IMG/VR virus record: IMGVR_UViG_3300020204_000216
Coordinates: 1 to 32,558 of that record
Source of the DNA: a virus
Length of the DNA stretch: 32,558 nucleotides
Direction: 5' to 3' (one strand)
The translations under genes were made by a program, and so were the position numbers. Positions 14,432 through 31,628 of this stretch are shown in pieces. A model generated the notes under the pieces. The model did no database searches and was not told the origin of the DNA. It saw only the letters and a list, made by a program, of their open reading frames with translations. Within the stretch, counting starts at the first letter, position 1. The number at the start of each line of letters is the position of its first letter.

Positions 14432-14461
14432 ACGTCTAGCTGATGGACGTTAAACCGTAGC
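14432..14461 (+). promoter_or_regulatory. H-type pseudoknot element, copy 1 of 6 (divergent copy)
   Basis: Stem 1 pairs CGTC (14433-14436) with GACG (14446-14449), extended by A-T. Stem 2 pairs GCTGATG (14439-14445) with CGTAGC (14456-14461) with one bulged G. The linking loop is TTAAAC, the invariant part of this family. It is the most diverged copy, and it precedes the duplicated leader and gene 14505-14645. Confidence 0.6.
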
Positions 14462-14491
14462 ATTACCCCCAGCGGAAATGGGTACCGCACA
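14462..14491 (+). repeat. 30-nt leader repeat, copy A
   Basis: A 30-base sequence (ATTACCCCCAGCGG, then AAATGGGTACCGCACA) matches 14687-14716 at 28 of 30 positions. GCGG and CCGC in it can pair around a GGGT that could also pair with the upstream ACCC. It contains an ATG (14478) in frame with the downstream GTG start, but that ATG has no spaced ribosome binding site. Confidence 0.8.
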
Positions 14492-14507
14492 ACAGGAGAT
14501 TCCTGTG
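14492..14507 (+). promoter_or_regulatory. Hairpin enclosing Shine-Dalgarno and GTG start, copy A
   Basis: ACAGG (14492-14496) pairs with CCTGT (14502-14506) around AGATT. The ribosome binding site AGGAG and the first two bases of the GTG start (14505-14507) lie in the hairpin. The same layout with other bases recurs at 14717-14732. Such a fold would hold back ribosome entry. Confidence 0.55.
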
Positions 14508-14645
14508 AGCTACAAACATCTTTCAGCTGTCGAACGGCGTCTTGTTTTTGAGACGTGGAAGCAATGGCAGCTGTATCCAGTACCAAAGCACTGGGTACAA
14601 GAAGCAATTCGTGAGGCTTTAATTAAGTTTAGGTCTCTTAACTGA
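14505..14645 (+). CDS. Hypothetical small protein (GTG start)
   Basis: A 46-residue protein starting (G)TGAGCTACAAACATC and ending in FRSLN. It is rich in Trp and basic residues (FETWKQWQLYPVPKHWVQEA). GTG 14505 was chosen because AGGAG lies 6 bases upstream, whereas the in-frame ATG 14478 has only a GGA one base away. It is the payload of the first of two consecutive cassettes with near-identical leaders. No family is recognised. Confidence 0.6.
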   Translation: MSYKHLSAVERRLVFETWKQWQLYPVPKHWVQEAIREALIKFRSLN

Positions 14646-14646
14646 T

Positions 14647-14681
14647 CCGTTAAAGCGGGAGGACAGGTGCAAACCCTGTCC
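14647..14681 (+). promoter_or_regulatory. GNRA-tetraloop hairpin element, copy A
   Basis: Directly after the stop, CCG-TTAAAG-CGG is followed by a stem GGACAGGT (14661-14668) / ACCCTGTCC (14673-14681) with loop GCAA and one bulged C. Copy B at 14950-14984 has the same layout with different stem bases, so the structure is conserved while the sequence changes. No T-run follows. The loop region also resembles a tRNA T-arm (TGCAAAC). Confidence 0.65.
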
Positions 14682-14686
14682 CAGTT

Positions 14687-14716
14687 ATTACCCTCAGCGG
14701 AGATGGGTACCGCACA
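14687..14716 (+). repeat. 30-nt leader repeat, copy B
   Basis: Second copy of the leader at 14462-14491, with two differences (C to T and A to G). It is followed by the second start-codon hairpin and gene 14730-14948. Confidence 0.8.
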
Positions 14717-14732
14717 CACGGAGAATACCGTG
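14717..14732 (+). promoter_or_regulatory. Hairpin enclosing Shine-Dalgarno and GTG start, copy B
   Basis: CACGG (14717-14721) pairs with CCGTG (14728-14732) around AGAATA. The GGAG site and the whole GTG start lie in the fold. Compared with copy A, both strands of the stem have changed together (ACAGG/CCTGT against CACGG/CCGTG), which supports the hairpin. Confidence 0.6.
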
Positions 14733-14948
14733 ACCAACACTACTGCTGCTGTACTTCCTACCAGGGAAGAACTAGCGGCTACGGCCTACGATCTCATCCA
14801 GTTTTGGATGGAGTCAGGCCACTCGCAGCTACTAAGCCGTGAGCAAGCTCTTCAGATTGCCGCATGGGGACTGAAGATTGCTGGCGAACGCGAGCTGCAA
14901 CACCAAGTTCTTGCAGAGCTTGTAGAGCTTCCCGAGAACTACGGTTAA
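14730..14948 (+). CDS. Hypothetical protein (GTG start)
   Basis: A 72-residue acidic protein starting MTNTTAAVLPTREELAATAY from GTG 14730, which has GGAG six bases upstream. Longer forms from ATG 14703 or a GTG at 14667 are possible but would read through the conserved leader. It is helical, with SREQALQIAAWGLKIAGERE in the second half. It is not similar to the protein in the neighbouring cassette. No family is recognised. Confidence 0.65.
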   Translation: MTNTTAAVLPTREELAATAYDLIQFWMESGHSQLLSREQALQIAAWGLKIAGERELQHQVLAELVELPENYG

Positions 14949-14949
14949 T

Positions 14950-14984
14950 CCGTACAAGCGGGTGGCAGGGTGCAAACCCCTGCC
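14950..14984 (+). promoter_or_regulatory. GNRA-tetraloop hairpin element, copy B
   Basis: CCG-TACAAG-CGG, then GGCAGGGT (14964-14971) pairing with ACCCCTGCC (14976-14984) around GCAA with one bulged C. Same order and same place after a stop codon as copy A at 14647-14681. Stem bases differ in a compensatory way. Confidence 0.65.
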
Positions 14985-14992
14985 TAACTATT

Positions 14993-15011
14993 GCCACTCA
15001 CTGAGAGTGGC
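14993..15011 (+). promoter_or_regulatory. Hairpin upstream of gene 15029
   Basis: GCCACTC (14993-14999) pairs perfectly with GAGTGGC (15005-15011) around ACTGA. A G-free leader, TTAACTCAATTCAACTT, then runs to the ATG at 15029. No Shine-Dalgarno sequence is present. Confidence 0.55.
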
Positions 15012-15028
15012 TTAACTCAATTCAACTT

Positions 15029-15205
15029 ATGACTGCACTACACATTCGAAAGAATACTGCTGCATTGCTGAAACTAACAGCATCTGCAGTAGAAACTGCT
15101 AAGCTGCCATCTAAACAGCAGCTTGGACAGAAGATAAGTGAATACCGCATTCGTGCGGCTGCACTTATTATGCCTAACGATTGTCAACTGCACATCAACT
15201 CATGA
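15029..15205 (+). CDS. Hypothetical small protein
   Basis: A 58-residue basic helical protein: MTALHIRKNTAALLKLTASA, then AKLPSKQQLGQKISEYRIRA and an end NDCQLHINS. Its stop overlaps the next start (ATGA at 15202-15205). The leader carries a CAACTCAA-type sequence and no Shine-Dalgarno site. No family is recognised. Confidence 0.6.
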   Translation: MTALHIRKNTAALLKLTASAVETAKLPSKQQLGQKISEYRIRAAALIMPNDCQLHINS

Positions 15206-15387
15206 CTAAGAATCAATTGGTTATTTACATTGCTACCGTTGTTATTGGTGGAGGTATTGCTAGTTGCATTGGTGCACGTTTGTTGCACGAAGCAACTGCT
15301 AAACAATGCCTTCAACATGACTGGCCTAAGCCTGCGCATCAAATTCATATGAATTGGTGTGCTTCTAACGGTTACAAAACTAATTGA
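15202..15387 (+). CDS. Small single-span membrane protein
   Basis: A 61-residue protein starting MTKNQLVIYIATVVIGGGIA. Residues 5-25 form one hydrophobic span; the rest is soluble with three Cys and several His residues. ATG 15202 was chosen because it overlaps the upstream stop. A role at the host membrane, for example superinfection exclusion, is possible but not shown. Confidence 0.6.
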   Translation: MTKNQLVIYIATVVIGGGIASCIGARLLHEATAKQCLQHDWPKPAHQIHMNWCASNGYKTN

Positions 15388-15390
15388 CTT

Positions 15391-15657
15391 ATGGCTACCC
15401 CAACACTTACCTACCGTCCTGACGAAGGACGGTATCGCGTTACTTGGTACAACGTTGAAACTACACAGCTTCACTTTGAGAAGTTGTGGAACATGTATGA
15501 TCTAGACACTGGTGCCACATGGCAAGAGTGGATTGATCGCGACGTACGTACTCTTGGTTCAATTCCTACCAGCATGAAAGACATGCTGATGGAGATGCAA
15601 GAGTATTACGACTATTCCACCACAATGGAGCAAGAACGCATCGAACAAATGATGTGA
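15391..15657 (+). CDS. Hypothetical acidic protein
   Basis: An 88-residue protein starting MATPTLTYRPDEGRYRVTWY, rich in Trp, Tyr and Met, ending in an acidic helix (EYYDYSTTMEQERIEQMM). It follows the membrane protein by 3 bases and is followed by tandem-hairpin copy 2. No family is recognised. Confidence 0.65.
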   Translation: MATPTLTYRPDEGRYRVTWYNVETTQLHFEKLWNMYDLDTGATWQEWIDRDVRTLGSIPTSMKDMLMEMQEYYDYSTTMEQERIEQMM

Positions 15658-15669
15658 TGTCTACAAATT

Positions 15670-15712
15670 CCCATCTGTAACAAGATGGGTTTCTGCAGAC
15701 TTTACATCTGCA
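15670..15712 (+). promoter_or_regulatory. Tandem-hairpin element, copy 2 of 4
   Basis: CCCATCT (15670-15676) pairs with AGATGGG (15683-15689), then TTTC, then TGCAGA (15694-15699) pairs with TCTGCA (15707-15712). The stems differ from those of copies 1, 3 and 4 while pairing is kept, and the TTTCTGCAGA linker is shared with copy 3. A CAACTCAACTCAACT leader follows, then ATG 15743. Confidence 0.75.
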
Positions 15713-15742
15713 CAACTCAACTCAACTCCACTTGGTTTCGCT

Positions 15743-15985
15743 ATGACTCCTAAAGCTGTTGAACGTCTCCTTACCCAAGAAGCTCGTCTTCTTGCACGTC
15801 GAGACACTCCTATCATTGATCAGGAGATTGAAAGTCAGCGCCAGGCTGCACTGGAGATCTTTTATCAATGGCAAGATGGCTTGGTACAGTTCCAAGACTT
15901 GGTCCCGTTCTGTGTTGTCCTTGAGAAGAAGGTTGATCTCAACCGTGCACTTCTTAAATGGGAACAAGAACATCTAGTGGACTAA
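15743..15985 (+). CDS. Hypothetical helical protein
   Basis: An 80-residue protein starting MTPKAVERLLTQEARLLARR, all helical and mixed charge, with a hydrophobic strip (GLVQFQDLVPFCVVLEKKVD). It follows a tandem-hairpin element and a CAACTCAAC leader without Shine-Dalgarno. The GTG of the next gene is 3 bases after the stop. No family is recognised. Confidence 0.6.
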   Translation: MTPKAVERLLTQEARLLARRDTPIIDQEIESQRQAALEIFYQWQDGLVQFQDLVPFCVVLEKKVDLNRALLKWEQEHLVD

Positions 15986-15987
15986 TC

Positions 15988-16140
15988 GTGGAACGTCCCT
16001 TGGTTATTTGGAAAGTGTTTAGTAGTGAGTTTGTTATTGAGCTAATGGCTCGCACACAAACAGAAGCATTGCTTGCTGGTGCTGAACTACTGGATATCTC
16101 TCCTGTTAACCTTAAAGCCATTCGTGTTTACGACTGGTGA
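15988..16140 (+). CDS. Hypothetical small protein (GTG start)
   Basis: A 50-residue protein from GTG 15988 (VERPLVIWKVFSSEFVIELM) ending NLKAIRVYDW. A longer frame from 15958 overlaps the end of the upstream gene; the GTG just past that stop is preferred. Alternating strand and helix pattern; no family is recognised. Confidence 0.5.
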   Translation: MERPLVIWKVFSSEFVIELMARTQTEALLAGAELLDISPVNLKAIRVYDW

Positions 16141-16152
16141 TCTTTGCATATT

Positions 16153-16192
16153 CCCATCGATTTCGATGGGTTTCTGCAGAGTTCATCTCTGC
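16153..16192 (+). promoter_or_regulatory. Tandem-hairpin element, copy 3 of 4
   Basis: CCCATCG (16153-16159) pairs with CGATGGG (16164-16170), linker TTTCT, then GCAGAG (16176-16181) pairs with CTCTGC (16187-16192). A leader containing CAACTCAACTCAA runs 30 bases to the ATG of the OB-fold gene at 16223. Confidence 0.75.
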
Positions 16193-16222
16193 TTGCTTAT
16201 CAACTCAACTCAATTTAATTTT

Positions 16223-16615
16223 ATGACTTACGCTGATCTGCAAACGTTTACTGTTGTTGGTCGCATTGCAAGTCTTATCGTTATCAAAACGGAAGATGAG
16301 CGTGACTGTTTGGTTGTTACTTTGTACCACCGTATCTCTAAAGATGCTGTGGTCACAATCAAATTCTTCAACAGCAATGGTTTGCTTACTGCTTATACCA
16401 ATGACAATCTGGTTGTAGGCCAAGAGCTCACGGTGTCTGGTAAAATTCAAGGCATCCGTGCTTTCTATATGAAAGATGAAGAGCTCATGCCGCTCAAGCA
16501 ACCAGAGTTTCAACTGAAAGTGACTGATTATGCCTTTGGTTCCAAGCCTCAGCCCAAAGCTGAGGAAGGAACGAAGGCTGCTAGTAAGAAGAAGGCTGCA
16601 ACTGCTGCGGCCTGA
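16223..16615 (+). CDS. Small OB-fold (SSB-like) protein with basic tail
   Basis: A 130-residue protein. Residues 8-108 have the strand pattern of an OB fold of the SSB type: TFTVVGRIASLIVIKTEDER, then LVVTLYHRISKDAVVTIKFF, VGQELTVSGKIQG and EFQLKVTDYAFGSK. Residues 109-130 are a Lys/Ala-rich basic tail rather than the acidic DDD-xx-F tip of bacterial SSB. The start is ATG 16223; upstream extension would cross the tandem hairpin. It may bind single-stranded DNA or RNA early in infection. The second SSB at 30512 has the acidic tip, so the two probably have different partners. Confidence 0.6.
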   Translation: MTYADLQTFTVVGRIASLIVIKTEDERDCLVVTLYHRISKDAVVTIKFFNSNGLLTAYTNDNLVVGQELTVSGKIQGIRAFYMKDEELMPLKQPEFQLKVTDYAFGSKPQPKAEEGTKAASKKKAATAAA

Positions 16616-16643
16616 CTCTTGACTAACTGATTCTTGCACTTAA

Positions 16644-16698
16644 CCCTGCTCATCATTGATGAGTGGGTTTTCTGCAGGAGATCTTCTTCCTCTCCTGC
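16644..16698 (+). promoter_or_regulatory. Tandem-hairpin element, copy 4 of 4
   Basis: CCC plus CTCATC (16644-16654) pairs with GATGAG plus GGG (16658-16667) with a small internal loop; linker TTTTCT; then GCAGGAG (16674-16680) pairs with CTCCTGC (16692-16698). It follows the stop of the OB-fold gene by 28 bases. Longest copy of the family. Confidence 0.7.
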
Positions 16699-16733
16699 CT
16701 ATTGCAACGTAGTACAGTTGTATTACTCCGTCC

Positions 16734-16750
16734 ATCAACCGAAGGTTGAT
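16734..16750 (+). promoter_or_regulatory. Hairpin upstream of gene 16775
   Basis: ATCAACC (16734-16740) pairs perfectly with GGTTGAT (16744-16750) around GAA. It sits 24 bases before ATG 16775 and is not part of the repeated families. Confidence 0.5.
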
Positions 16751-16774
16751 TCCTACTACACAGGACTTTCTCCA

Positions 16775-16993
16775 ATGAAACAGATTACTAAACTTGGACC
16801 TAAACAATTTATTCACACTGATGTGTACCCTGAGTACCACAGCAGTAGAGCAGGACGTTACCTTTGTAACTTTTTATCTGCAACCATTGTTATCGGTATC
16901 GCTTTTGTCGTAACAGGCGCTATGCTTGGTACCGACTTTACAAAGTCTTTACTACAGTGGTCATGCCAACAAACCTTGGTCGAACCACGGTAA
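16775..16993 (+). CDS. Small single-span membrane protein
   Basis: A 72-residue protein starting MKQITKLGPKQFIHTDVYPE. One hydrophobic span lies at about residues 32-53 (NFLSATIVIGIAFVVTGAML), with a soluble N-terminal half and a short C-terminal tail. ATG 16775 was preferred because the upstream extension crosses structured noncoding RNA. Function unknown. Confidence 0.6.
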   Translation: MKQITKLGPKQFIHTDVYPEYHSSRAGRYLCNFLSATIVIGIAFVVTGAMLGTDFTKSLLQWSCQQTLVEPR

Positions 16994-17018
16994 ACTAATT
17001 AACCTATCTGTTATTCCA

Positions 17019-17402
17019 ATGGTCTTACCTACTACAACATTTGCAAATACCGCGTTGAAGTGGAGACCAAATGGAGAACTATCTAGGCACGATTTGCGTG
17101 CCATTACTGCAAAGTTAATGGCTGCAGAACAAAGACCCTTCACACTACCTGAGGCTCAACCCATGACTTATGTAGCACTTGTCGTTGACCAGACCGGGCG
17201 TTATGCCCATGTCTATGGCAATGCCAATAGCTGGGATAACTACGTTGATCAACTCGAAGACATTGGATGCGAAGTTGTTGAGAATCAAACTGATGACTAT
17301 GAGATTGATCCATCAGAAAACTTAAGTGAATACATGAGAGAATGCGATGTTGCACACATTGACTCTCTCTTGAAAGATACAGATTTTAAACCATTTGACT
17401 AG
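17019..17402 (+). CDS. Hypothetical acidic protein
   Basis: A 127-residue protein from ATG 17019 (MVLPTTTFANTALKWRPNGE). The second half is an acidic alpha/beta region: MTYVALVVDQTGRYAHVYGN, then DNYVDQLEDIGCEVVENQTD. A shorter form could start at Met 48 (ATG 17163). It ends in DTDFKPFD, an acidic tip that weakly recalls SSB tails. No family is recognised. Confidence 0.6.
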   Translation: MVLPTTTFANTALKWRPNGELSRHDLRAITAKLMAAEQRPFTLPEAQPMTYVALVVDQTGRYAHVYGNANSWDNYVDQLEDIGCEVVENQTDDYEIDPSENLSEYMRECDVAHIDSLLKDTDFKPFD

Positions 17403-17451
17403 CTATTACTTGGAATTCTGATAAACGTCGTTTATTCATATTCTTGATATC

Positions 17452-17480
17452 CGTCCTGAGTATGACGTTAAACTGCTCAG
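17452..17480 (+). promoter_or_regulatory. H-type pseudoknot element, copy 2 of 6
   Basis: Stem 1: CGTC (17452-17455) with GACG (17464-17467). Stem 2: CTGAGTA (17456-17462) with TGCTCAG (17474-17480), 7 bp with one T-G. Loop 3 is TTAAAC. The strands interleave in the order S1-S2-S1'-S2', which defines an H-type pseudoknot. The ATG of gene 17500 follows after 19 bases. Confidence 0.8.
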
Positions 17481-17499
17481 TCCTTTATCAACTCATTCG

Positions 17500-17637
17500 A
17501 TGACAACTCAACAACTCGATGAGAACTACAATGCAGATCTTCTTGACGCATGGTCTGACCTTGCGTACCAGCAGGAACAAGCTATGCAAGAAGAGATGCA
17601 ACCACCTAACCCAACTGATGAACTAACTGATGACTAA
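17500..17637 (+). CDS. Small acidic protein
   Basis: A 45-residue, strongly acidic protein: MTTQQLDENYNADLLDAWSD, then Gln/Glu/Met-rich sequence and the end PTDELTDD. It follows a pseudoknot element and a leader with almost no G. Its stop lies inside the start of the next frame (ATGACTAA at 17630). No family is recognised. Confidence 0.6.
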   Translation: MTTQQLDENYNADLLDAWSDLAYQQEQAMQEEMQPPNPTDELTDD

Positions 17638-18010
17638 CACTCAGCCTCAACAATATAATGATGATGTAATACTACACATCATCGTTATCCTGACCATTCT
17701 CACTACACTGTTCCTTCAATTCATCTCACTACTATGGCCCTCCAACCCATCCAACACGACATTGCTGCAATCGTCGGTTACACCCCACTCACCAACGAAG
17801 AGGGACAAGAGCCAGCCGACACCACACTCTGCTTCCACGACGTTGAAATCAGAGACGGTTGGCCGCACATCTTCTGGAAACGTGAGTGGTACCCCGTCCC
17901 CACGCTCGAAGAAATTGAAGAGTGGGTCTTCGACTCAGTCTGTTTCACGCCAGAGGAGGACGAGGTCGAACCCGACGACCCCAACAGTTGGCTCTCAATC
18001 CTTGGCTTAA
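17630..18010 (+). CDS. Possible membrane protein overlapping the next gene
   Basis: A 126-residue frame. The N-terminal part looks real: its ATG overlaps the upstream stop, and residues 13-35 form a strong hydrophobic span (VILHIIVILTILTTLFLQFI). From about residue 36 on it is Ser/Thr/Pro/Arg-rich and overlaps gene 17734-18015 in another frame, so that part could be a by-product of the other frame. Either an overlapping gene pair or a short membrane peptide whose frame happens to stay open. Confidence 0.4.
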   Translation: MTNTQPQQYNDDVILHIIVILTILTTLFLQFISLLWPSNPSNTTLLQSSVTPHSPTKRDKSQPTPHSASTTLKSETVGRTSSGNVSGTPSPRSKKLKSGSSTQSVSRQRRTRSNPTTPTVGSQSLA

Positions 18011-18015
18011 TCTAA
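17734..18015 (+). CDS. Hypothetical acidic protein
   Basis: A 93-residue acidic protein starting MALQPIQHDIAAIVGYTPLT. The middle (RDGWPHIFWKREWYPVPTLE, then EIEEWVFDSVCFTPEEDE) has a well-formed mix of aromatic and acidic residues typical of small phage proteins. Third codon positions are rich in C, unlike the AT-ending codons of its neighbours, which may mark a different origin. Most of it overlaps the frame from 17630. No family is recognised. Confidence 0.65.
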   Translation: MALQPIQHDIAAIVGYTPLTNEEGQEPADTTLCFHDVEIRDGWPHIFWKREWYPVPTLEEIEEWVFDSVCFTPEEDEVEPDDPNSWLSILGLI

Positions 18016-18036
18016 GTATTGAAGCGCACATAAAAC

Positions 18037-18063
18037 TTGCCAATACTATCCATGTATTGGCAA
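18037..18063 (+). promoter_or_regulatory. Perfect 10-bp hairpin
   Basis: TTGCCAATAC (18037-18046) pairs perfectly with GTATTGGCAA (18054-18063) around TATCCAT. It lies after gene 17734-18015 and 18 bases before the UAAGU-bulge element. No T-run follows, so it is more likely an mRNA-end stabiliser or processing signal than a terminator. Confidence 0.55.
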
Positions 18064-18080
18064 TAGTACTAATACTACAA

Positions 18081-18121
18081 GCTGGGCATTTACTACATAA
18101 GTACGTGATGTAAGTCCCAGC
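18081..18121 (+). promoter_or_regulatory. UAAGU-bulge stem element, copy 1 of 4
   Basis: Outer stem GCTGGG (18081-18086) with CCCAGC (18116-18121). Inner stem: CAT-T-TAC (18087-18093, one bulged T) with GTGATG (18105-18110). The 3' bulge TAAGT (18111-18115) and the 5' GGGCAT are identical in all four copies. A G-free 27-base leader follows, then ATG 18149. Confidence 0.75.
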
Positions 18122-18148
18122 ATCAAATCAACTATCAACAAACACACC

Positions 18149-18472
18149 ATGGCTAAACATCAACTTCAATTCACCAGCAACACGTACACCCGTCATGATG
18201 GTAGTACACATACCTACCAGCTCAACGATGACATGCGCATCACGCTGATCATCGAAGAACTTATGGCTATCTACCAACGGGAACAGAATCGTCCCTTGGG
18301 ATACAATGATCTTCCGTATCATTACGAAGAATATCTGTTAGAAGCCATTGGTCAACTTGAGCAAGCTATCGAATGGCCTGATGAACCAGATGAATGGGTT
18401 GGTGAACCACCGATAACTATGGATGAAATGCACACTGCTGCATGGAAAGAACACCAAGAAATGCATCGGTAA
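18149..18472 (+). CDS. Hypothetical acidic protein
   Basis: A 107-residue protein starting MAKHQLQFTSNTYTRHDGST. The N-terminus looks like beta strands; the middle is helical (MRITLIIEELMAIYQREQNR); the C-terminus is acidic and Trp-rich (AIEWPDEPDEWVGEPPITMD). It follows a UAAGU-bulge element. The HNH gene starts 5 bases after its stop. No family is recognised. Confidence 0.65.
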   Translation: MAKHQLQFTSNTYTRHDGSTHTYQLNDDMRITLIIEELMAIYQREQNRPLGYNDLPYHYEEYLLEAIGQLEQAIEWPDEPDEWVGEPPITMDEMHTAAWKEHQEMHR

Positions 18473-18477
18473 CTGCA

Positions 18478-18849
18478 ATGAACAATTTAACCTTATTTAA
18501 AAATTTGTTTTATGTAGATGAAACTTCTCCATCTTTTTTAAGATGGAAAATATCAATTACTAATCGTGTTAAAGCAAACAACGTTGCAGGTTGTTTAACT
18601 TCACATGGATATTGGCGTGTTACATATAAAGGTAAACAATATCCAGTACATTTAATAGTGTATGTTTTAACTTTTAATGAATACAAATTATCTATGACTA
18701 TTGATCACATTGATAATTGTCCATCTAACAATAATCCAAATAATTTAAAATGGGCAATAAAATCTGAACAAAATACTAACCGTAGAAAATGGGGTTTTAA
18801 AACAATGAACAATAACTTAAATACATTTGAATTAACAAAAGCTAATTAA
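18478..18849 (+). CDS. HNH homing-type endonuclease
   Basis: A 123-residue protein from ATG 18478 (MNNLTLFKNLFYVDETSPSF). Residues 58-101 carry an HNH_3-like core: VHLIVYVLTFNEYK with His58, then MTIDHIDNCPSNNNPNNLKW with the D-H-I-D motif at 76-79 and the N-N-L-K-W step, then SEQNTNRR. It cuts DNA with a single metal ion. The gene is markedly more AT-rich than its neighbours and its codons end mostly in A or T, as expected for a recently inserted mobile endonuclease. It is free-standing; no interrupted host gene is seen. Confidence 0.85.
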   Translation: MNNLTLFKNLFYVDETSPSFLRWKISITNRVKANNVAGCLTSHGYWRVTYKGKQYPVHLIVYVLTFNEYKLSMTIDHIDNCPSNNNPNNLKWAIKSEQNTNRRKWGFKTMNNNLNTFELTKAN

Positions 18850-18876
18850 TAAATTAAACATTTATTTAAATTCTCA

Positions 18877-18953: not shown

Positions 18954-18958
18954 AAACA

Positions 18959-19003
18959 CAAGCTGGGCATCGCTCTGACAGAAGGCGTGTAAGTCCCAGC
19001 TTG
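18959..19003 (+). promoter_or_regulatory. UAAGU-bulge stem element, copy 2 of 4
   Basis: The longest outer stem of the family: CAAGCTGGG (18959-18967) with CCCAGCTTG (18995-19003). Inner stem CA-T-CGC (18968-18973) with GCGTG (18985-18989); 3' bulge TAAGT (18990-18994). The extended outer stem pairs in bases not shared with other copies. A G-free 26-base leader follows, then ATG 19030. Confidence 0.75.
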
Positions 19004-19029
19004 CTCAACTACTACACACTTAACTCACC

Positions 19030-19600: not shown

Positions 19601-19605
19601 CTGCA

Positions 19606-20613: not shown

Positions 20614-20652
20614 CTGGGCATCACCTACATAAGTACGTGGTGTAAGTCCCAG
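20614..20652 (+). promoter_or_regulatory. UAAGU-bulge stem element, copy 3 of 4
   Basis: Outer stem CTGGG (20614-20618) with CCCAG (20648-20652). Inner stem CATCAC (20619-20624) with GTGGTG (20637-20642), 6 bp. Bulge TAAGT (20643-20647). The apical region TACATAAGTACGTG is nearly the same as in copy 1, but the inner stem differs. A G-free 31-base leader follows, then ATG 20684. Confidence 0.75.
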
Positions 20653-21415: not shown

Positions 21416-21443
21416 CGTCCTGAGCATGACGTTAAACTGCTCA
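21416..21443 (+). promoter_or_regulatory. H-type pseudoknot element, copy 3 of 6
   Basis: Stem 1: CGTC (21416-21419) with GACG (21428-21431). Stem 2: TGAGCA (21421-21426) with TGCTCA (21438-21443), six Watson-Crick pairs. Loop 3 is TTAAAC. The ATG of the PcfJ-like gene follows after 27 bases; an in-frame ATG at 21426 lies inside the element and is not the likely start. Confidence 0.85.
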
Positions 21444-21470: not shown

Positions 21471-23228
21471 ATGCAATTCCGTCTTCCTACTCAACTACAA
21501 CAAGAGTTGTTGGCGTATGACCCAGCTCTTAAAGCACTGGCTAAACAACAGAAAACAATTAACAACAAGACTAAGAAAGCTGCACACCCACTGGGTAAAC
21601 CCAACCAACTGATTCCAACTGAAGTATTGCCAGTATCGTTATATAACGATGCTATTGACAATATTAATTTGCAGGCTGCACCTGATCGTTACCAACTGTT
21701 TACACGAATTGTTGAAGGTGCAGTAACTCCGTATGCAATCTTGTATCACTTTGAGCAAGTGTGGTATGCAGCATGGCTACCACCTAAGCATCAAAAAGAT
21801 CAGTACATTTATGGATACTCGTTTGCATTCAAAGACAACGCATCTGCACACAAGATGCTGCCACATAGAGTTCGTAAGCACTTATACGTTGACAATCCAA
21901 ACAAACTATCTACATATCAGCTTGGCCGCGTTCAGTATTTTACATTCAACAAACTAGTAACCAGACAAGATATTATTGATGGTTACGATGCAAAGAACTG
22001 GAACATCCCAGGTGCTCAAGCTTACTACAAAAAGTCTGGTAATCTGTGCCAACAAGTAAAAGCATTTGAAGATCAACTGTTTAACACAATCCCTATGTGG
22101 TCTGACAGTCAATCAACTTTTGCTCGGCTCCGGGCAATCAATCCAGCTTCTGTTATCTTCACTAATGGTTATCATTATGGTCAAGAATGTAGAACATTCT
22201 GGCAACAACATGACATTACCAAAGCTGTAATCTCATATGACTTGTTGTTCAAACTTATCACTCATTATGCACACGACAGTGGATATGACGGTGATATCTA
22301 TAGGCAACTAAACAAGATGCTGCACATTATTGCTACTCCGTTCTTTAAGAAATGGATTCAAGCAAGATGTGATCAAGTCAATGCAATGTTTAACGATACT
22401 AGTAATCAATATCTTAGGTGTATCCGTGGACCATGGGCTCAGATCCATGTACTATTTAATGCTATTGCTTTTGTGTATGACGTATGGCCTGAGTGTCCCA
22501 TTGATTACTATCAAACTTACATTGTTCAACTGTTAAGTTTTAAATCAACACGTCAAGGTACAATTATTACACAAGCATGGTTGAACAAACACATGCCTGT
22601 TGCTTCATTCTTTTCTATTCTTGAAAAAGAATATGAACGAGAAATAAACAATACGCACACTCGTTACTATTATGACTCAGATCTACAGTGTCCACGTTTT
22701 TATTATTCCAACTGGAGTGATACGGTATCAATGCTAGATACAATCCTTGCACACAATGCATGTGCAACGGAACCACTAACTCTTGATGTTCCAAAACGTT
22801 GGCGTCTCATGGAGTTCCATGATCACGTTCAGTCTGTTGCATGGAAGGTCAAGAACAAAAACGAATCACTACCCCAGGATTTGTTCCCAGAACCAGTCAA
22901 GCTTGAACTTGGTTCCAGTAGGTGGACATTTTTCCAACCAGTTGATACCCATCAACTAGCTGCATGGGGACAAGCCGTACGTAATTGCGTCGGTAGTGCC
23001 AGTGGTTATGCAGATGGTGTTCGTAAGAAGAAGCACTTCATTGTGCTGTGCATGATTGATAGCAAACCCATGTTCACAATCCAATTGGAAGTCAACATGG
23101 GTATGATGTCCGTTAAACAGATCGCTGGTATTAGCAACGCCAGGCTTACGGATGAGGAACGTGAGTTGTACACAACTGCATTCAGCAAGGCGTTGACGCA
23201 ACGTGAGTCTGCGCTAGCATCTGCTTAG
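21471..23228 (+). CDS. PcfJ-like protein
   Basis: A 585-residue protein from ATG 21471 (MQFRLPTQLQQELLAYDPAL). An in-frame ATG 45 bases upstream lies inside a pseudoknot element and was rejected. The C-terminal region (about residues 470-575) has the PcfJ-like pattern: an N-C-V-G-S motif (QAVRNCVGSASGYADGVRKK), then HFIVLCMIDSKPMFTIQLEV, then VKQIAGISNARLTDEE. The long N-terminal part is rich in Tyr, His and Gln and is not recognised. PcfJ-like proteins occur in conjugative plasmids and phages with unclear biochemical role. It stands alone behind its own RNA element and is followed by a strong hairpin. Confidence 0.75.
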   Translation: MQFRLPTQLQQELLAYDPALKALAKQQKTINNKTKKAAHPLGKPNQLIPTEVLPVSLYNDAIDNINLQAAPDRYQLFTRIVEGAVTPYAILYHFEQVWYAAWLPPKHQKDQYIYGYSFAFKDNASAHKMLPHRVRKHLYVDNPNKLSTYQLGRVQYFTFNKLVTRQDIIDGYDAKNWNIPGAQAYYKKSGNLCQQVKAFEDQLFNTIPMWSDSQSTFARLRAINPASVIFTNGYHYGQECRTFWQQHDITKAVISYDLLFKLITHYAHDSGYDGDIYRQLNKMLHIIATPFFKKWIQARCDQVNAMFNDTSNQYLRCIRGPWAQIHVLFNAIAFVYDVWPECPIDYYQTYIVQLLSFKSTRQGTIITQAWLNKHMPVASFFSILEKEYEREINNTHTRYYYDSDLQCPRFYYSNWSDTVSMLDTILAHNACATEPLTLDVPKRWRLMEFHDHVQSVAWKVKNKNESLPQDLFPEPVKLELGSSRWTFFQPVDTHQLAAWGQAVRNCVGSASGYADGVRKKKHFIVLCMIDSKPMFTIQLEVNMGMMSVKQIAGISNARLTDEERELYTTAFSKALTQRESALASA

Positions 23229-23279: not shown

Positions 23280-23495
23280 ATGACTGACTACACAGACGAT
23301 CAACTTCTTGCCATGGCAATGGCAACTATTAGTAACTACATTCATGACAACTCACCTCAGTACATCCTGATTGAAGACCCACGTAACGAGAATGATTACG
23401 ATACGTGGAACTATGGCTGCGAACCGCTGCCTCATGATCATACTTGGTATCACACATCAATAGATGTGAGTGTAAATCCAAGTATGCCTGAGTAG
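23280..23495 (+). CDS. Hypothetical acidic protein overlapping the tRNA
   Basis: A 71-residue protein starting MTDYTDDQLLAMAMATISNY, acidic and aromatic in the second half (NENDYDTWNYGCEPLPHDHT). Its last codons, including the TAG stop at 23493-23495, lie inside the first ten bases of the tRNA gene. A transcript cut to release the tRNA would therefore lose this stop codon. No family is recognised. Confidence 0.6.
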   Translation: MTDYTDDQLLAMAMATISNYIHDNSPQYILIEDPRNENDYDTWNYGCEPLPHDHTWYHTSIDVSVNPSMPE

Positions 23496-23561
23496 CCCAG
23501 CGGAAGAGGCAAACGACTTAAAATCGTTCCAGCGTGAGTTCAAATCTCACCTCAGGTACCA
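23486..23561 (+). tRNA. tRNA with UAA anticodon (tRNA-Leu), short variable loop
   Basis: Acceptor GCCTGAG (23486-23492) pairs with CTCAGGT (23551-23557, first pair G-T). D arm GCC...GGC. Anticodon stem AACGA / TCGTT with loop CTTAAAA gives anticodon TAA. T arm GTGAG-TTCAAAT-CTCAC is perfect, then discriminator A and an encoded CCA. The anticodon predicts leucine, but the variable region is only 5 bases (CCAGC), a class I layout; bacterial tRNA-Leu normally has a long class II arm. It has no intron, unlike the tRNA-Leu(UAA) of many cyanobacteria. Confidence 0.9.
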
Positions 23562-24083: not shown

Positions 24084-24111
24084 CTGGGCATCTATACAGT
24101 GTAAGTCCCAG
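24084..24111 (+). promoter_or_regulatory. UAAGU-bulge stem element, copy 4 of 4 (shortest)
   Basis: Outer stem CTGGG (24084-24088) with CCCAG (24107-24111). Inner stem CA-T-CT (24089-24093) with AGTG (24098-24101), loop ATAC, then bulge TAAGT (24102-24106). The short form shows which parts are fixed: GGGCAT, the bulged T and TAAGT. ATG 24142 follows after 30 bases. Confidence 0.75.
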
Positions 24112-26448: not shown

Positions 26449-26467
26449 TCTATCAATTTAAACCAAC

Positions 26468-26707: not shown

Positions 26708-26730
26708 TCCGATCATCTAAACAAACTACT

Positions 26731-27357: not shown

Positions 27358-27374
27358 GTTACAAACAATTGATT

Positions 27375-27402
27375 TGTCCTGAGCACGACATTAAACTGCT
27401 TG
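27375..27402 (+). promoter_or_regulatory. H-type pseudoknot element, copy 4 of 6 (compensatory stem 1)
   Basis: Stem 1 here is TGTC (27375-27378) with GACA (27387-27390) instead of CGTC/GACG, so both sides have changed together. Stem 2: TGAGCA (27380-27385) with TGCTTG (27397-27402), two wobble pairs. Loop TTAAAC is kept. The ATG of the GP88-like gene follows after a G-free 21-base leader. Confidence 0.85.
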
Positions 27403-27423
27403 TTCACTCAACTCAACACAACC

Positions 27424-28194
27424 ATGGAACAACTTAGTTTTTCTACCGGCAATGCCAAACTTGGTAAACGATTAATCTTTTCGTTGCCTGCTGGTTATAC
27501 ATGTCCGCACGCTGGTGTGTGCAAAACTATGGCTGATCGTACCACAGGGAAGATCATTGATCTGCCACAAGAGAATGGTCCTAGCTGGCAAGACTATCGC
27601 TGCTTTGCTGCAATGGCAGAGACTAGGCCAGGCGTACGTGATTCACGTTGGGGTAACTGGGATCTGATCAAGGAAGTAATGTATTCTGTTGATCGACCAG
27701 AAGAAAAACTTGTATTGTTAACTCAACTTATTCATGAATCAATTCAAGCTGCACAACCCGTACGTGAACCTTGTGATCTTGTACGTGTACATGAGAGTGG
27801 TGATTTTTATACTGAGTTGTATTTCCGTGCATGGCTCCAGGTTGCTAGACAAAATCCTGATGTTAAGTTTTATGCCTACACAAAATCTTTGGGTATGTGG
27901 TATGAGTTACGTCATGTAATTCCAGATAACTTTTATCTGACTGCATCAGTTGGTGGTACGCTTGACTACCTGCTTCCCAAGTATCCAGAAGTATTTTATC
28001 GTGTTGCTTATGTTGTATACACAGAAGAACAGGCTGAGCAAATGGGATTGGAAATTGACCACGATGACAGTCATTGCTTTGGTCCCAGCTCTTTTGCTTT
28101 ACTTGTACATAATGTTCAACGTGCTGGATCCGAAGCATCCAAAGCACTGGCGGCTCGACGCAAGAACGGTCAATGGACTGGTTACAAAAAATAA
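27424..28194 (+). CDS. GP88-family-like protein
   Basis: A 256-residue protein from ATG 27424 (MEQLSFSTGNAKLGKRLIFS); an in-frame TTG at 27400 lies in the pseudoknot. It has the features I associate with the phage Gp88 family: N-G-K-L-G start, CPHAGVC at 27-33, a third Cys at 60, and the central RVHESGDFYTELYFRAW at 121-137, followed by FYAYTKSLGMW. The conserved Cys and S-G-D-F suggest a metal site, but no activity is established for the family as far as I know. It sits between thyX and the polymerase, and ends before a strong terminator. Confidence 0.7.
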   Translation: MEQLSFSTGNAKLGKRLIFSLPAGYTCPHAGVCKTMADRTTGKIIDLPQENGPSWQDYRCFAAMAETRPGVRDSRWGNWDLIKEVMYSVDRPEEKLVLLTQLIHESIQAAQPVREPCDLVRVHESGDFYTELYFRAWLQVARQNPDVKFYAYTKSLGMWYELRHVIPDNFYLTASVGGTLDYLLPKYPEVFYRVAYVVYTEEQAEQMGLEIDHDDSHCFGPSSFALLVHNVQRAGSEASKALAARRKNGQWTGYKK

Positions 28195-28220
28195 AATACT
28201 GATTGGCTGACATAGTTGCA

Positions 28221-28271
28221 TTCCAGAAGAAGGACAGTATCATTTAACTGTTCTTTCTTCTGGAACTTTTT
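28221..28271 (+). terminator. Strong terminator abutting the next start codon
   Basis: TTCCAGAAGAA-GGACAGT (28221-28238) pairs with ACTGTTC-T-TTCTTCTGGAA (28247-28265): 18 bp with one bulged T, loop ATCATTTA, then CTTTTT. The GTG start of the next gene begins at 28272, directly after the T-run. Termination here would switch off the downstream polymerase block. Confidence 0.85.
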
Positions 28272-28505
28272 GTGTCTTACGTTATTGCTACATGTAAAGA
28301 TGGTGTTAACTATTGCGTCCGAGCAGATTCAAATAAGAACAAGTTCGTCTTGATTCCTGTAGAATCTGATTCGGATCTGTCCAAAGTTTTTTGCCATCCA
28401 TATCGCGTTGGTGCAGCACAGATCTTGCAATGGATTATTGAACATGACTCAGATCTCGCCTGTCAAAAACTTGAAGTTTCCGCTGAAGGCAAGTTCAGAG
28501 GTTGA
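28272..28505 (+). CDS. Hypothetical protein ahead of DNA polymerase (GTG start)
   Basis: A 77-residue protein beginning at a GTG directly behind the terminator (SYVIATCKDGVNYCVRADSN). It is beta-rich, then helical (VGAAQILQWIIEHDSDLACQ). No ribosome binding site or other in-frame start is present. Its 3' end overlaps the polymerase start by 62 bases. No family is recognised; the pairing suggests translational coupling to the polymerase. Confidence 0.55.
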   Translation: MSYVIATCKDGVNYCVRADSNKNKFVLIPVESDSDLSKVFCHPYRVGAAQILQWIIEHDSDLACQKLEVSAEGKFRG

Positions 28506-30309
28506 GAAGTATTACGTGTTCGATTTGGAGACCGATAATCTTTATGACAAAGTCACGAAGATACATTGCTTGGTACTGTATGATGTCCAGCGAAAACAAA
28601 CTTTTACTTATGGGCCTGATGATATTGCTAGTGGTCTCGAGCATTTGGCTCGGGCTCATGTGCTCATTGGCCATAACATCCTGTTCTACGACTTACCTGT
28701 AATTCGTAAACTTTATCCGTTCTATACGTTTAGAGCTGCACGAATTATTGATACACTCATTTGTACTCGACTCATCTGGCCCAAAGAAAAACTGTATGAC
28801 CTTGATGAAGAACAATATACGGAGGTTCCAAAGGGCCTCCGTGGTTCAGCCTCACTTAAAGCGTGGGGTTATCGGTTGGCTGATTACAAGATTGACTTCA
28901 AAGATTTTTCAGAATACTCCGAAGCAATGGCAGACTACTGCCGTCAAGACGTGGCAGTTACCACAAAACTATTTGAAAAAATCCAAAAACAAAACTATCC
29001 AGAACCTGCACTCAAACTTGAACATGACTTTGCTGGATGCATTGAAGCACAAGTGCGAACAGGTTTTTCTTTTGATGTGGATGCAGCTCTTGATCTGGTG
29101 GATAGTCTCAGAGCAAAAGAAACAGAACTTGAAACACACTTAAAAGAAATCTTTCCACCCATTGAACACAAAGAAGTATTTGTACCAAAGGTCAATAACA
29201 AAACACGTGGTTATGTAAAGGGGGTTCCATTTGAAAAAGTTCGACTGGAAGAATTTAATCCTGGATCCAGGCAACAAATTGTCAGTAGGCTCCAGCAGAA
29301 GTATGGATGGAAATCAAGTAAATCAACTGAAAAAGGAAACCCTGTCCTTGATGATGACGTACTTGAACAGTTGCCTTACCCAGAAGCCAAACCATTAGCT
29401 GAGTACATGCTGATTGAGAAACGTCTTGGTCAGATTGCTGATGGTAAAAATGCTTGGCTTAAGTTAGTCAACAATGAAACAGGATGTATTCATGGTGACG
29501 TTGTAACAAACGGATGTATTACTGGTCGCTGCAGTCATCGCAACCCCAACATGGCTCAGGTACCAGCAGCATACTCACCTTACGGAAAAGAATGTAGATC
29601 TTTGTTTCATGCACCAGATGGTTGGAACTTAATTGGTGTAGATGCTAAAGCTCTTGAACTTAGGTGCCTTGCTGGTTACCTTGCTTACTGGGATGATGGC
29701 GAGTATGCACGTGTAGTAACAGATGAATCAATTGATATTCACGTTTATAATCAAGAACGTTTTGGTGTGGCTACCAGAGACATAAGTAAGCGTTTACTTT
29801 ATGCTGTGGCTTATGGAGCTGGTGCACTTAAAGCAGGAACTGTTATTGATCCGAATGAAAAAAATGAAGTAGTTCTGCGCAAACTAGGTAGTACTGCAAT
29901 TAATTCATTCATGGATGGTGTACCAGCACTACGTAAACTTAAAGAGCATCTTGCAAAAACACTACAAGAAAACAATTGGTTACGTGGTTTAGATAAACGT
30001 ATTCTTTATTGTAGATCAGATTTCAAAGCATTAAATGTTTTATTGCAATCAGCAGGTGCATTAATTATGAAGCAAGTTGTTATTAACATTCATACAGATA
30101 TGGATGAACTTGGTTATGTACATGGTGTTGATTGGCAACAAGCTGCGATGATTCATGATGAAGTTCAGTTAGCTTGCAAACCCGAATTAACAGACATTCT
30201 TAAGTCTGTAGCACTGGATGCTTTTCCAAAGGCTCAACAATTCTTTAACTTCCGTTGTCCTATCGATGGCGATGCTAAAGTAGGCTGCACCTGGTTTGAT
30301 ACGCACTGA
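28444..30309 (+). CDS. polA: T7-type DNA polymerase (family A) with 3'-5' exonuclease
   Basis: A 621-residue replicative polymerase from ATG 28444 (MTQISPVKNLKFPLKASSEV). The 3'-5' exonuclease has Exo I VFDLETD at 25-31 and Exo II LIGHNILFYDLPVI at 74-87. The polymerase has TGRCSHRNPNMAQVP at 360-374, motif A VDAKALELRCLAGYL at 399-413 (Asp400), motif B RDISKRLLYAVAYGAG at 445-460 (Lys449, Tyr453) and motif C IHDEVQ at 570-575. These follow T7 gp5 closely, and the O-helix position is Tyr as in T7. All catalytic residues are present. In T7 the processivity factor is host thioredoxin; no obvious T7-type loop was checked for here. Confidence 0.97.
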   Translation: MTQISPVKNLKFPLKASSEVEKYYVFDLETDNLYDKVTKIHCLVLYDVQRKQTFTYGPDDIASGLEHLARAHVLIGHNILFYDLPVIRKLYPFYTFRAARIIDTLICTRLIWPKEKLYDLDEEQYTEVPKGLRGSASLKAWGYRLADYKIDFKDFSEYSEAMADYCRQDVAVTTKLFEKIQKQNYPEPALKLEHDFAGCIEAQVRTGFSFDVDAALDLVDSLRAKETELETHLKEIFPPIEHKEVFVPKVNNKTRGYVKGVPFEKVRLEEFNPGSRQQIVSRLQQKYGWKSSKSTEKGNPVLDDDVLEQLPYPEAKPLAEYMLIEKRLGQIADGKNAWLKLVNNETGCIHGDVVTNGCITGRCSHRNPNMAQVPAAYSPYGKECRSLFHAPDGWNLIGVDAKALELRCLAGYLAYWDDGEYARVVTDESIDIHVYNQERFGVATRDISKRLLYAVAYGAGALKAGTVIDPNEKNEVVLRKLGSTAINSFMDGVPALRKLKEHLAKTLQENNWLRGLDKRILYCRSDFKALNVLLQSAGALIMKQVVINIHTDMDELGYVHGVDWQQAAMIHDEVQLACKPELTDILKSVALDAFPKAQQFFNFRCPIDGDAKVGCTWFDTH

Positions 30310-30310
30310 C

Positions 30311-30457
30311 ATGACTGATTGGAAAGCTACTGCAAAACAACTGCATGAAATTGCAACTTTCTTTTTTCATTCTCATTTTGATTCATCATTAAGAAATGAT
30401 GGTGCTCTTTTTGAAAAGTATGTAGAGTATTTAGATGAGATAAAAAAAGAATTTTAA
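30311..30457 (+). CDS. Hypothetical small protein
   Basis: A 48-residue protein: MTDWKATAKQLHEIATFFFH, then SHFDSSLRNDGALFEKYVEY and DEIKKEF. It starts just after the polymerase stop and ends before pseudoknot copy 5, filling the gap in frame. No family is recognised. Confidence 0.55.
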   Translation: MTDWKATAKQLHEIATFFFHSHFDSSLRNDGALFEKYVEYLDEIKKEF

Positions 30458-30463
30458 TTGTTC

Positions 30464-30490
30464 CGTCCCAGGTATGACGTTAAACTGCCT
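30464..30490 (+). promoter_or_regulatory. H-type pseudoknot element, copy 5 of 6 (upstream of SSB)
   Basis: Stem 1: CGTC (30464-30467) with GACG (30476-30479). Stem 2: AGGTA (30470-30474) with TGCCT (30486-30490), with G-C pairs where copies 2-4 have A-T and an A-T pair where they have G-C. Loop TTAAAC is kept. The SSB ATG follows after 21 bases. The T4 gene 32 mRNA has a pseudoknot at the same kind of place. Confidence 0.85.
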
Positions 30491-30511
30491 TACCACCAAC
30501 TGTTTGATCTC

Positions 30512-31327
30512 ATGAATCTTTCATTCCTTTGTGCACAAACTGCCGAAGCTCCTAAAGAAAAAGCAATTAGCGAAAGCTCTTTTGCAACCGTATGTAATGT
30601 GTTGTTGCCTCCAGTAGGTAACAAAGCTCCAACCCCAATTCAACTAAATGTTTATGGTAAAGCTGCTGAACGATTTGCCCGTATTCCAGCCGGTGCACAG
30701 ATCTACATTCACGGCGCCAAGCTTCGATATGATCTCGATACGAAAACGTATTCCTTACATGGAGGAATTGTTGCGCAAGTTGACGCATCATTCCCAATCC
30801 TCAATACAGTTGTTCTCAGCGGACGCTGTGTTAAGGACATCGATCAAGATGATGCACGTGCATTCAAAACTACGGCCGATGGGTTGATGATCTGTAATCA
30901 AACCCTTGGTGTTAATACAGGTCGTAATCAATCAGATCTGTTTAACTTCTATGCAATTAACGCTGCAGAAGATAAGTTAAACTATGCTGAACTTCTTGTT
31001 AACTTTACACGTAAAGGTGTGGGGCTTACGATCCAGGGGAGACTGGTAACAGATGCCTGGACAGATAAAGAAACCAAAGAGAAGAAGGTTGCTACCAAGA
31101 TTCAGTTGGTGTCAATGACCTTGGCACCTAAAGGAAACAATGAAGCCAAACCAATTCAACCGCAAACAACCGTTGCTTCTGGCTCAGGAGTAGCTAGCCT
31201 GTGGGGTGGAAAGGTTGCTGAAGATCTTGCTGAACCTTGGGGTGCGCAGACTGGTACCAGCCTTCCTGATCTTCCTGGTTACGCAATGGCTTCAGTTACC
31301 GATGACGATGGAGAACCTCCTTTCTGA
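30512..31327 (+). CDS. Single-stranded DNA-binding protein, two OB folds, acidic tip
   Basis: A 271-residue protein from ATG 30512 (MNLSFLCAQTAEAPKEKAIS); an upstream TTG lies before the pseudoknot. Residues 22-90 look like one OB fold (FATVCNVLLPPVGN, TPIQLNVYGKAAERF, GAQIYIHGAKLRYD) and 97-206 a second (NTVVLSGRCVKDIDQ, LLVNFTRKGVGLTIQGRLVT, ATKIQLVSMTLAP). Residues 207-260 are a flexible Pro/Gly/Ala-rich linker, and the end TDDDGEPPF matches the acidic tip by which SSBs recruit partners. It coats single-stranded DNA in replication and lies next to the polymerase. Tandem OB folds make it longer than a bacterial SSB. Confidence 0.75.
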   Translation: MNLSFLCAQTAEAPKEKAISESSFATVCNVLLPPVGNKAPTPIQLNVYGKAAERFARIPAGAQIYIHGAKLRYDLDTKTYSLHGGIVAQVDASFPILNTVVLSGRCVKDIDQDDARAFKTTADGLMICNQTLGVNTGRNQSDLFNFYAINAAEDKLNYAELLVNFTRKGVGLTIQGRLVTDAWTDKETKEKKVATKIQLVSMTLAPKGNNEAKPIQPQTTVASGSGVASLWGGKVAEDLAEPWGAQTGTSLPDLPGYAMASVTDDDGEPPF

Positions 31328-31329
31328 TC

Positions 31330-31596
31330 ATGACTGAAAAACAGTTTAACCACTTTGAATTCAAACATGTTGATGATAACACCACAATAACAAACACTGT
31401 TAACGCAATGTTTGTTGGTGAAATTATTGATTCATTCATTTGTTTTCTTCGTGGATGCGGTCATTACGACAAAGCAATTTATGAGCACATGTCTTCTGTA
31501 TCAGAAGAATATTTTGATATGGAAGAACGCCGCAACAATGAACTGTTAAGGAAGTTTAATCTTCCAGCTCCAAACCTTGACCTTGGTCTAAAGTGA
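31330..31596 (+). CDS. Hypothetical acidic protein
   Basis: An 88-residue protein starting MTEKQFNHFEFKHVDDNTTI, with a helix (GEIIDSFICFLRGCGHYDKA) and a charged end (EERRNNELLRKFNLPAPNLD). It begins 2 bases after the SSB stop, so it is likely co-translated with SSB. No family is recognised. Confidence 0.6.
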   Translation: MTEKQFNHFEFKHVDDNTTITNTVNAMFVGEIIDSFICFLRGCGHYDKAIYEHMSSVSEEYFDMEERRNNELLRKFNLPAPNLDLGLK

Positions 31597-31600
31597 GATA

Positions 31601-31628
31601 CGTCCTGGGTACGACGTTAAACTTCCCA
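31601..31628 (+). promoter_or_regulatory. H-type pseudoknot element, copy 6 of 6
   Basis: Stem 1: CGTC (31601-31604) with GACG (31613-31616). Stem 2: TGGGTA (31606-31611) with TTCCCA (31623-31628), one T-T mismatch and G-C pairs in place of A-T. Loop TTAAAC is kept. ATG 31649 follows after a G-free 20-base leader. Confidence 0.8.

Follow-up and report, generated by a model that had tools for sequence, protein, structure and literature searches.

The stretch of DNA analysed here (the window) is the entire virus record IMGVR_UViG_3300020204_000216, 32,558 bases with a GC content of 41.8%. Its family A DNA polymerase finds its best match, at 75% identity, in Synechococcus phage S-EIVl, and the window is therefore probably a fragment of an S-EIVl-like cyanophage. 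It carries five copies of a 28-nt element that folds as an H-type pseudoknot. This pseudoknot defines an RNA family that covaries strongly, matches nothing in Rfam 15 and is found in phages of several bacterial phyla. It lies upstream of genes of many families at a preferred spacing with sharp inner edges, and within one gene family the same place holds the pseudoknot, a different hairpin or a Shine-Dalgarno (SD) sequence. We tentatively favour the reading that this self-folding pseudoknot serves translation starts and tRNAs as a portable module marking a 5' boundary, and that it would act by its shape. The family bears on the initiation of messages that lack an SD sequence and on the way in which long phage transcripts are split into units that are read independently.

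Cis-acting phage leader pseudoknots are known as a kind, the leader of gene 32 being the example. No description of the present pseudoknot, and no portable multi-gene family this widespread, was found in the literature searched, which consisted of openly licensed PMC papers and is weak evidence of absence.

Fold, covariation and distribution

The pseudoknot consists of a 4-bp stem 1, a loop 1 formed by a single C, a 6-bp stem 2, a 1-nt loop 2 that is mostly U, and a 6-nt loop 3 of the form HWAAAC, i.e. [UCA][UA]AAAC. The five copies in the window share one layout, with structure-aware scores of 19.5–20.5 compared to a best score of 16.5 in 10 Markov-shuffled windows. The exact pattern has five matches in the window when read forward and none when read backward. 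A covariance model gives the five copies 38–48 bits (E 1.3e-10 to 6.1e-8; these E-values are rough, the training set including window-like copies). The ATG lies 20, 27, 21, 20 and 20 nt past the 3' end of copies 1–5, in agreement with an earlier reading of the window made from its sequence only. That sequence-only reading had counted six copies. Those at 17452, 21416, 27375, 30464 and 31601 stand by both the scan and the covariance model, and the sixth, at 14432, does not. Its stem-1 strands are 9 nt apart instead of 8, its loop 1 is not C and its stem 2 is broken; the covariance model matches only the 10-nt fragment GACGTTAAAC, with an E-value of 1.6, and the copy is absent among the listed hits of the structure scan of the window.

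As a guard against selecting for pairing, IMG/VR was scanned twice, with stem 1 and then stem 2 left free, and each scan yielded at least 119 stretches. The resulting viral copy sets are samples from among the matches listed, with identical copies merged in the counts. With stem 1 free, full pairing was seen in 113 of 134 non-redundant copies among the matches listed (shuffled mean 19.7, maximum 35), and 29 of the 45 distinct strand combinations among these matches were fully paired. With stem 2 free, at least four of five pairs formed in 206 of 218 copies among the matches listed (shuffled mean 158, maximum 172). For 144 distinct copies (of 199), 94.7% of cells were paired versus 79.5% after shuffling and 21–48% for slid partners; two-sided changes were found in 208 cells (shuffled mean 58), and the covariation score was 0.495 versus 0.206 for shuffled copies. 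In these 144 copies, two-sided changes affected 8 pairs, no more than in the shuffles (mean 7.4). The H-type fold with pairwise stem changes, read originally from the window copies, is thus borne out by strong covariation of both stems in related copies.

The closing C-G pair of stem 1 is invariant even where the search left stem 1 free. Both search patterns set the junction A-U pair of stem 2, whose constancy therefore carries no weight as evidence. For loop 3, constancy is likewise partly built in, the loci having been retrieved with TTAAAC patterns; the variants CTAAAC, ATAAAC and TAAAAC turned up despite this. Among 36 combinations of loop lengths, only 1-1-6 was strongly enriched, with 257 hits compared to 37–108 for the others, and the 108-hit geometry is a register-shifted reading of the same 1-1-6 copies. 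The copies of phiEcoM-GJ1 and cr7_1 have one stem-1 mismatch.

The first exact pattern was found in at least 119 IMG/VR stretches. At E ≤ 0.05 the covariance model matched 19 of 19 records, as expected for records picked for carrying a copy, the weakest being phiEcoM-GJ1 (7.5e-4). S-EIVl has seven matches, and others were found in phages of Nostoc, Staphylococcus, Streptococcus, Lactobacillus, Mycobacterium, Arthrobacter, Paracoccus, Moorella and Vibrio and in a crAss-like phage, so that the host groups include cyanobacteria, Firmicutes and actinobacteria. The sequence-only reading had looked to related phages for further copies and for covariation, and both were found outside the window. Four IMG/VR records contain 6–9 copies each, in every case all on a single strand. 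In a viral contig (L109:1416-1760), two near-identical full copies lie 78 nt from each other, diverged copies are interspersed, and downstream there is a third full copy.

In bacterial genomes, one exact pattern was found in 27 stretches. The Enterococcus and Desulfosporosinus copies appear to sit in prophages, where they precede scaffold-like genes, and other stretches are leaders of bacterial genes from Omnitrophota and others. One copy each was present in 14 of 145 genomes from the phylum of an Omnitrophota genome. In 26 of 28 listed leader loci, which include at least two duplicate pairs, the element is preceded, and in most cases overlapped, by a short open reading frame (ORF) whose core resembles RPVAHCKEGC (17 exact); one further locus, L132, encodes a peptide that is related by eye. 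Such ORFs occur at loci L129, L134, L136, L139, L145, L148, L404-L415 and others, in Omnitrophota, Desulfallas, Desulfoscipio and Deltaproteobacteria, often with Rrf2 genes downstream. The gene behind the bacterial leaders often encodes an Rrf2 regulator (the one tested exceeded the cut-off). PrdB-like and ExtJ-like proteins are encoded once each, with scores that fall short of the family cut-offs, and one gene encodes a protein which, by its first residues, we take to resemble Hcp. Behind the pseudoknot at L128, L151 and L290 lies similar sequence that appears to be non-coding; about 100 nt are alike in L128 and L151, and part of this in L290. A blastn search of E. coli genomes with a single consensus query gave no match, and plasmids gave nine weak records, among them an Acinetobacter one with an altered stem-2 region.

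Placement and exchange with other leader signals

The downstream genes belong to many families. A downstream ORF, picked by rule, was present behind 303 of 310 copies, and these ORFs fall into 131 clusters, 86 of them singletons. Their representatives include PcfJ-like, GP88, single-stranded DNA-binding protein (SSB) and Rrf2 genes and two head scaffolding families (phrog_172 and phrog_194); in the window, the names PcfJ, GP88, SSB and DUF5895 given by the sequence-only reading are upheld by Pfam. In four named Firmicutes-type phages, the gene behind a copy is itself followed by the major capsid gene or by an annotated capsid protein. This capsid-side gene is annotated as scaffold in Javan271 and D6E and as hypothetical in B166; in phig1e it is annotated as minor capsid but belongs to phrog_194 by family search. 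GP88 retains the element amid changing upstream neighbours (18 copies, with 11 upstream clusters and one copy without). One upstream cluster, of 12, pairs with up to seven downstream clusters, and in four closely read copies of this cluster the start codon is again 47–48 nt away.

The element is placed at defined distances from the neighbouring stop and start codons. For the longest upstream ORF, assessed for 180 copies, the stop lies at -8 in 46, at -9 in 11 and at -10 in 8; it lies from -7 to +11 in only 3 of the 180, and 10 have no such ORF. Copy 2 of the window (21416) conforms to the commonest spacing, its upstream TGA starting 8 nt before the element. A usable start within 130 nt was found for 274 of 310 copies; it lies at +46 to +58 from the first base of the element in 178 and nearer in 16. 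SD-less genes have no start at +42 to +46 and 18 at +47. An element confined to 3' untranslated regions is rejected: the S-H35 copy that is 414 nt from the next annotated gene has an unannotated SD-less ORF about 20 nt behind it.

A few copies stand before tRNA genes. Four of 323 copies end 1–8 nt before a tRNA, and one has a same-strand tRNA upstream within 400 nt. Copies in Nostoc phage NMeng1, where the tRNA is annotated as pseudo, and in Arthrobacter phage Molivia, where loop 3 is longer, likewise stand just before a tRNA. By rough ORF calls, which make this neighbour test too noisy to rely on, 180 of the 323 copies have neighbours on the same strand at both sides, 25 only downstream, 22 only upstream and 6 at neither side, with 75 inside an ORF call and 15 at an edge.

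Exchange with other signals was seen upstream of GP88, for which 75 of 80 homologues were readable (five had too little upstream sequence). Under a strict pseudoknot rule, 39 of them carry the pseudoknot, 11 a different hairpin and 25 neither, of which at least two may be variants. Strong SD pairing (≤ -3.5 kcal/mol) was found in 0 of the 50 homologues with an element and 13 of the 25 without (Fisher 4e-8), and a plain SD motif in 0 of 50 versus 6 of 25. L323 and L381, scored as lacking the pseudoknot upstream of GP88, have possible short-stem-2 variants with 4-bp TGAG/CTCA or TGGG/CTCA stems. In S-EIVl, an SD motif is present in none of four copy-bearing genes but in only 26 of 116 others, with three of the seven model matches outside this test. 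Glutamine-II riboswitches lie near GP88 genes of related phages (L357:951-1009 and L369:1374-1429, both on the minus strand).

A second element, the hairpin CTGGG-CA-[hairpin]-GTAAGT-CCCAG with a variable inner hairpin, also stands before SD-less G-poor leaders. It was found as 74 distinct sequences, compared to a mean of 4.75 for scrambled cores, and four of its loci searched in Rfam gave no match. In 13 cases, one of them in the window, it ends 3–4 nt before tRNA-Leu(UAA).

Proposed boundary module and competing explanations

A 5' boundary acting by shape would fit the occurrence of different folds in one place, the many families of downstream genes and a probable clearance from ribosomes and tRNAs. 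The module would sit between neighbouring cistrons, or in the space separating a cistron from a tRNA, at roughly the closest distance that a ribosome terminating on its upstream side and a 30S subunit initiating on its downstream side would permit. Given the sizes of ribosome footprints, ribosomes at these two positions would about just clear the pseudoknot at the distances found. Ahead of the AUG lies a short single-stranded stretch, poor in G, on which the ribosome would land; by its shape, the pseudoknot would keep this stretch, or the 5' end of the tRNA, from base-pairing with the message upstream and from being overrun from there. As a result, the downstream unit could be read independently, often without an SD sequence, and the gain would be one of translation. 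The absence of local structure is reported to suffice for SD-independent initiation (PMC3121790), and ACA motifs are reported as translation enhancers (PMC3879156).

Several observations weigh against a boundary of this kind. In the rough neighbour test, the next gene call is on the other strand in 28 of the 323 copies, besides the 75 that lie inside an ORF call. Only 40 of 89 SD-bearing genes have their start at +46 to +58, copies before such genes often being farther away; therefore the pseudoknot is not simply a substitute for the SD sequence. In the bacterial leaders the short ORF mostly runs into the pseudoknot, and ribosomes therefore enter it there. The starts, stops and clusters come from ORF heuristics and are not curated genes, and some of the downstream ORFs are spurious. 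Relatedness weakens the GP88 comparison: the tree provides only 5–6 independent contrasts, of which about one differs in SD, and none of the tests reaches significance.

The main rival, which we consider rather unlikely, would be a stabiliser of RNA 5' ends: an endonuclease would cut just upstream, and the pseudoknot would become the 5' end of the message or tRNA precursor and block 5'-dependent decay. The gene 32 precedent suggests it, many copies have some 5 nt between the stop codon and the pseudoknot, and such a role could suit genes and tRNAs alike. However, the sequence upstream of 157 copies shows only a weak stop-codon-like signal at -8 to -6 and no cleavage-type sequence, and the sharp +47 edge towards the start codon would be left unexplained.

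Another rival is a platform, similar to an internal ribosome entry site, which would actively recruit the 30S subunit to SD-less start codons. The start lies 19–23 nt behind the 3' end in 95 of 185 SD-less genes, the GP88 homologues with an element are without strong SD pairing, and none of the SSB homologues described below has a clear SD sequence by eye. Yet the tRNA-adjacent copies have no start codon at that spacing, a different hairpin is found in the same places, and 89 of 274 copies precede SD-bearing genes, all of which makes active recruitment improbable.

The element might instead bind a protein or small molecule, or serve as a leader-peptide attenuator, and so switch the gene behind it. 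Such a switch would fit the conserved letters at the helix junction and in loop 3, as well as the RPVAHCKEGC-like short ORF at the element ahead of Rrf2 and other genes in Omnitrophota and others. With 131 downstream clusters and hosts from cyanobacteria to Firmicutes, however, a single ligand is unlikely, and the conserved letters are what a minimal pseudoknot core would probably need too; we regard this explanation as quite doubtful. Action on transcription, through antitermination or pausing by the nascent RNA, could account for copies that precede capsid modules and tRNAs, but the position is tuned to stop and start codons, and we think it very unlikely.

The sequence-only reading had suggested one post-transcriptional regulon of early and replication genes and had raised, on the model of T4 gene 32, the idea that the phage SSB regulates its own message through the pseudoknot. 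Among 28 SSB loci, one of which (L314) was left out as it shows no gene start, the element stands before 27 of 27 homologues with a readable start (scored by eye; two have a 2-nt longer middle, and several are nearly identical). Given this strict link in S-EIVl-like phages, the SSB may bind the element there, and Arthrobacter phage Molivia has an SSB gene just upstream of a copy. T4 and T2 gene 32 pseudoknots have the same strand order and one-nt loop 1 as the present element, and the leader behind the element is unstructured. What is not supported is the general function. Unrelated phages and bacteria have the same element ahead of scaffold and capsid modules, tRNAs and bacterial Rrf2 genes, and with 131 downstream clusters among 303 copies a purely SSB-linked regulon is rejected. 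An operator of this kind is thus highly improbable as the explanation of the family, and SSB autoregulation is unlikely to be the pseudoknot's general function. A recoding signal, with the pseudoknot stimulating readthrough or frameshifting, is least credible of all and is rejected: the stop codon ends 5 nt before the element in many copies, a spacer similar to those of recoding pseudoknots, and 4 of 107 in-frame extensions exceed 250 codons (probably downstream genes in frame by chance), but the median in-frame extension is 13 codons, between those of the other frames (5 and 18), the stop is TAA in 69 of 107, and the spacing, hence the frame, varies.

Among known systems, the gene 32 leader of phages T4, T2 and RB69 likewise has a pseudoknot in the mRNA ahead of an SSB gene, followed by an unstructured stretch (PMC3014915). 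In contrast to the present element, it serves one gene, is bound by its own gp32 and lies about 67 nt upstream; the present element has conserved loops C and HWAAAC, occurs several times per genome, and stands before genes of many families, before tRNAs and in bacterial leaders, with no restriction to SSB mRNA. STAXI (RF01728) is also described as small pseudoknot units near SSB and other DNA-handling genes but, unlike the present element, as tandem arrays of two or more units, most often three, in which UUCG loops are frequent (PMC2864571). None of nine element-bearing records exceeded the STAXI covariance-model cut-off, with one weak match at E 4.36, and STAXI is rejected. REP/BIME elements are, like the present element, small structures just past stop codons in intercistronic gaps; they are simple palindromes seen as protecting the upstream 3' end, whereas the present element is a pseudoknot whose tie to the start codon downstream is at least as strong. 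Glutamine-II, preQ1 and SAM-II riboswitches are small pseudoknots in 5' leaders. The sequence-only reading had recognised none of these three, and Rfam 15 agrees: at gathering score only tRNA was found in the window, and at E ≤ 5 nothing was found on the element at eight loci.

More speculatively, the boundary module may be one of a kit. Phages and some bacteria could share interchangeable RNA boundary modules (the pseudoknot, the GTAAGT hairpin and probably more) that would punctuate messages at ribosome-edge distance or against a tRNA, so that the next unit is read SD-free or independently of its neighbour; in bacteria, the pseudoknot version would form a switch together with a conserved leader peptide that contains Cys. 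We regard this as possible, and hold it loosely.

Features of the window

Pseudoknot copies, the genes behind them and related elements in the window
Feature	Position	Strand	Remarks
Reported sixth copy, non-member	14432..14461	+	only GACGTTAAAC matches the model
Pseudoknot copy 1	17452..17479	+	CGTC-C-TGAGTA-T-GACG-TTAAAC-TGCTCA; covariance model E 2.6e-10
G-poor 20-nt leader without SD behind copy 1	17480..17499	+	ATG 17500 starts a 45-aa ORF
Second element	18082..18120	+	then G-poor leader, ATG 18149
Second element	18963..18999	+	before ATG 19030
Second element	20614..20652	+	ATG ~31 nt further on
Pseudoknot copy 2	21416..21443	+	CGTC-C-TGAGCA-T-GACG-TTAAAC-TGCTCA; covariance model E 1.3e-10
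PcfJ-like gene (PF14284) behind copy 2	21471..23228	+	Pfam
Second element	23443..23482	+	CTTGG...GTAAAT-CCAAG; ends 3 nt before tRNA-Leu(UAA) 23486-23561
Second element	24084..24111	+	before ATG 24142
Pseudoknot copy 3	27375..27402	+	TGTC-C-TGAGCA-C-GACA-TTAAAC-TGCTTG; stem-1 pair changed; E 2.4e-8
GP88 gene (PF17338) behind copy 3	27424..28194	+	Pfam; homologue L029 matches phrog_1392
Pseudoknot copy 4	30464..30491	+	CGTC-C-CAGGTA-T-GACG-TTAAAC-TGCCTT; covariance model E 6.1e-8
SSB gene (PF00436) behind copy 4	30512..31327	+	Pfam
Pseudoknot copy 5	31601..31628	+	CGTC-C-TGGGTA-C-GACG-TTAAAC-TTCCCA; covariance model E 2.3e-8
DUF5895 gene (PF19247) behind copy 5	31649..32557	+	Pfam; runs open to record end

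Between leftward and rightward genes, the region 14300-14520 contains DnaA-box-like sequences, TTTTCCACA and CTGTGGAAAAG, and may be a replication origin; the non-member copy at 14432 falls within it. A third pattern, CCCATC-loop-GATGGGTTTCTGCAGA-loop-TCTGC, occurs in two plus-strand leaders, at 15660-15742 before ATG 15743 and at 16140-16222 before ATG 16223.

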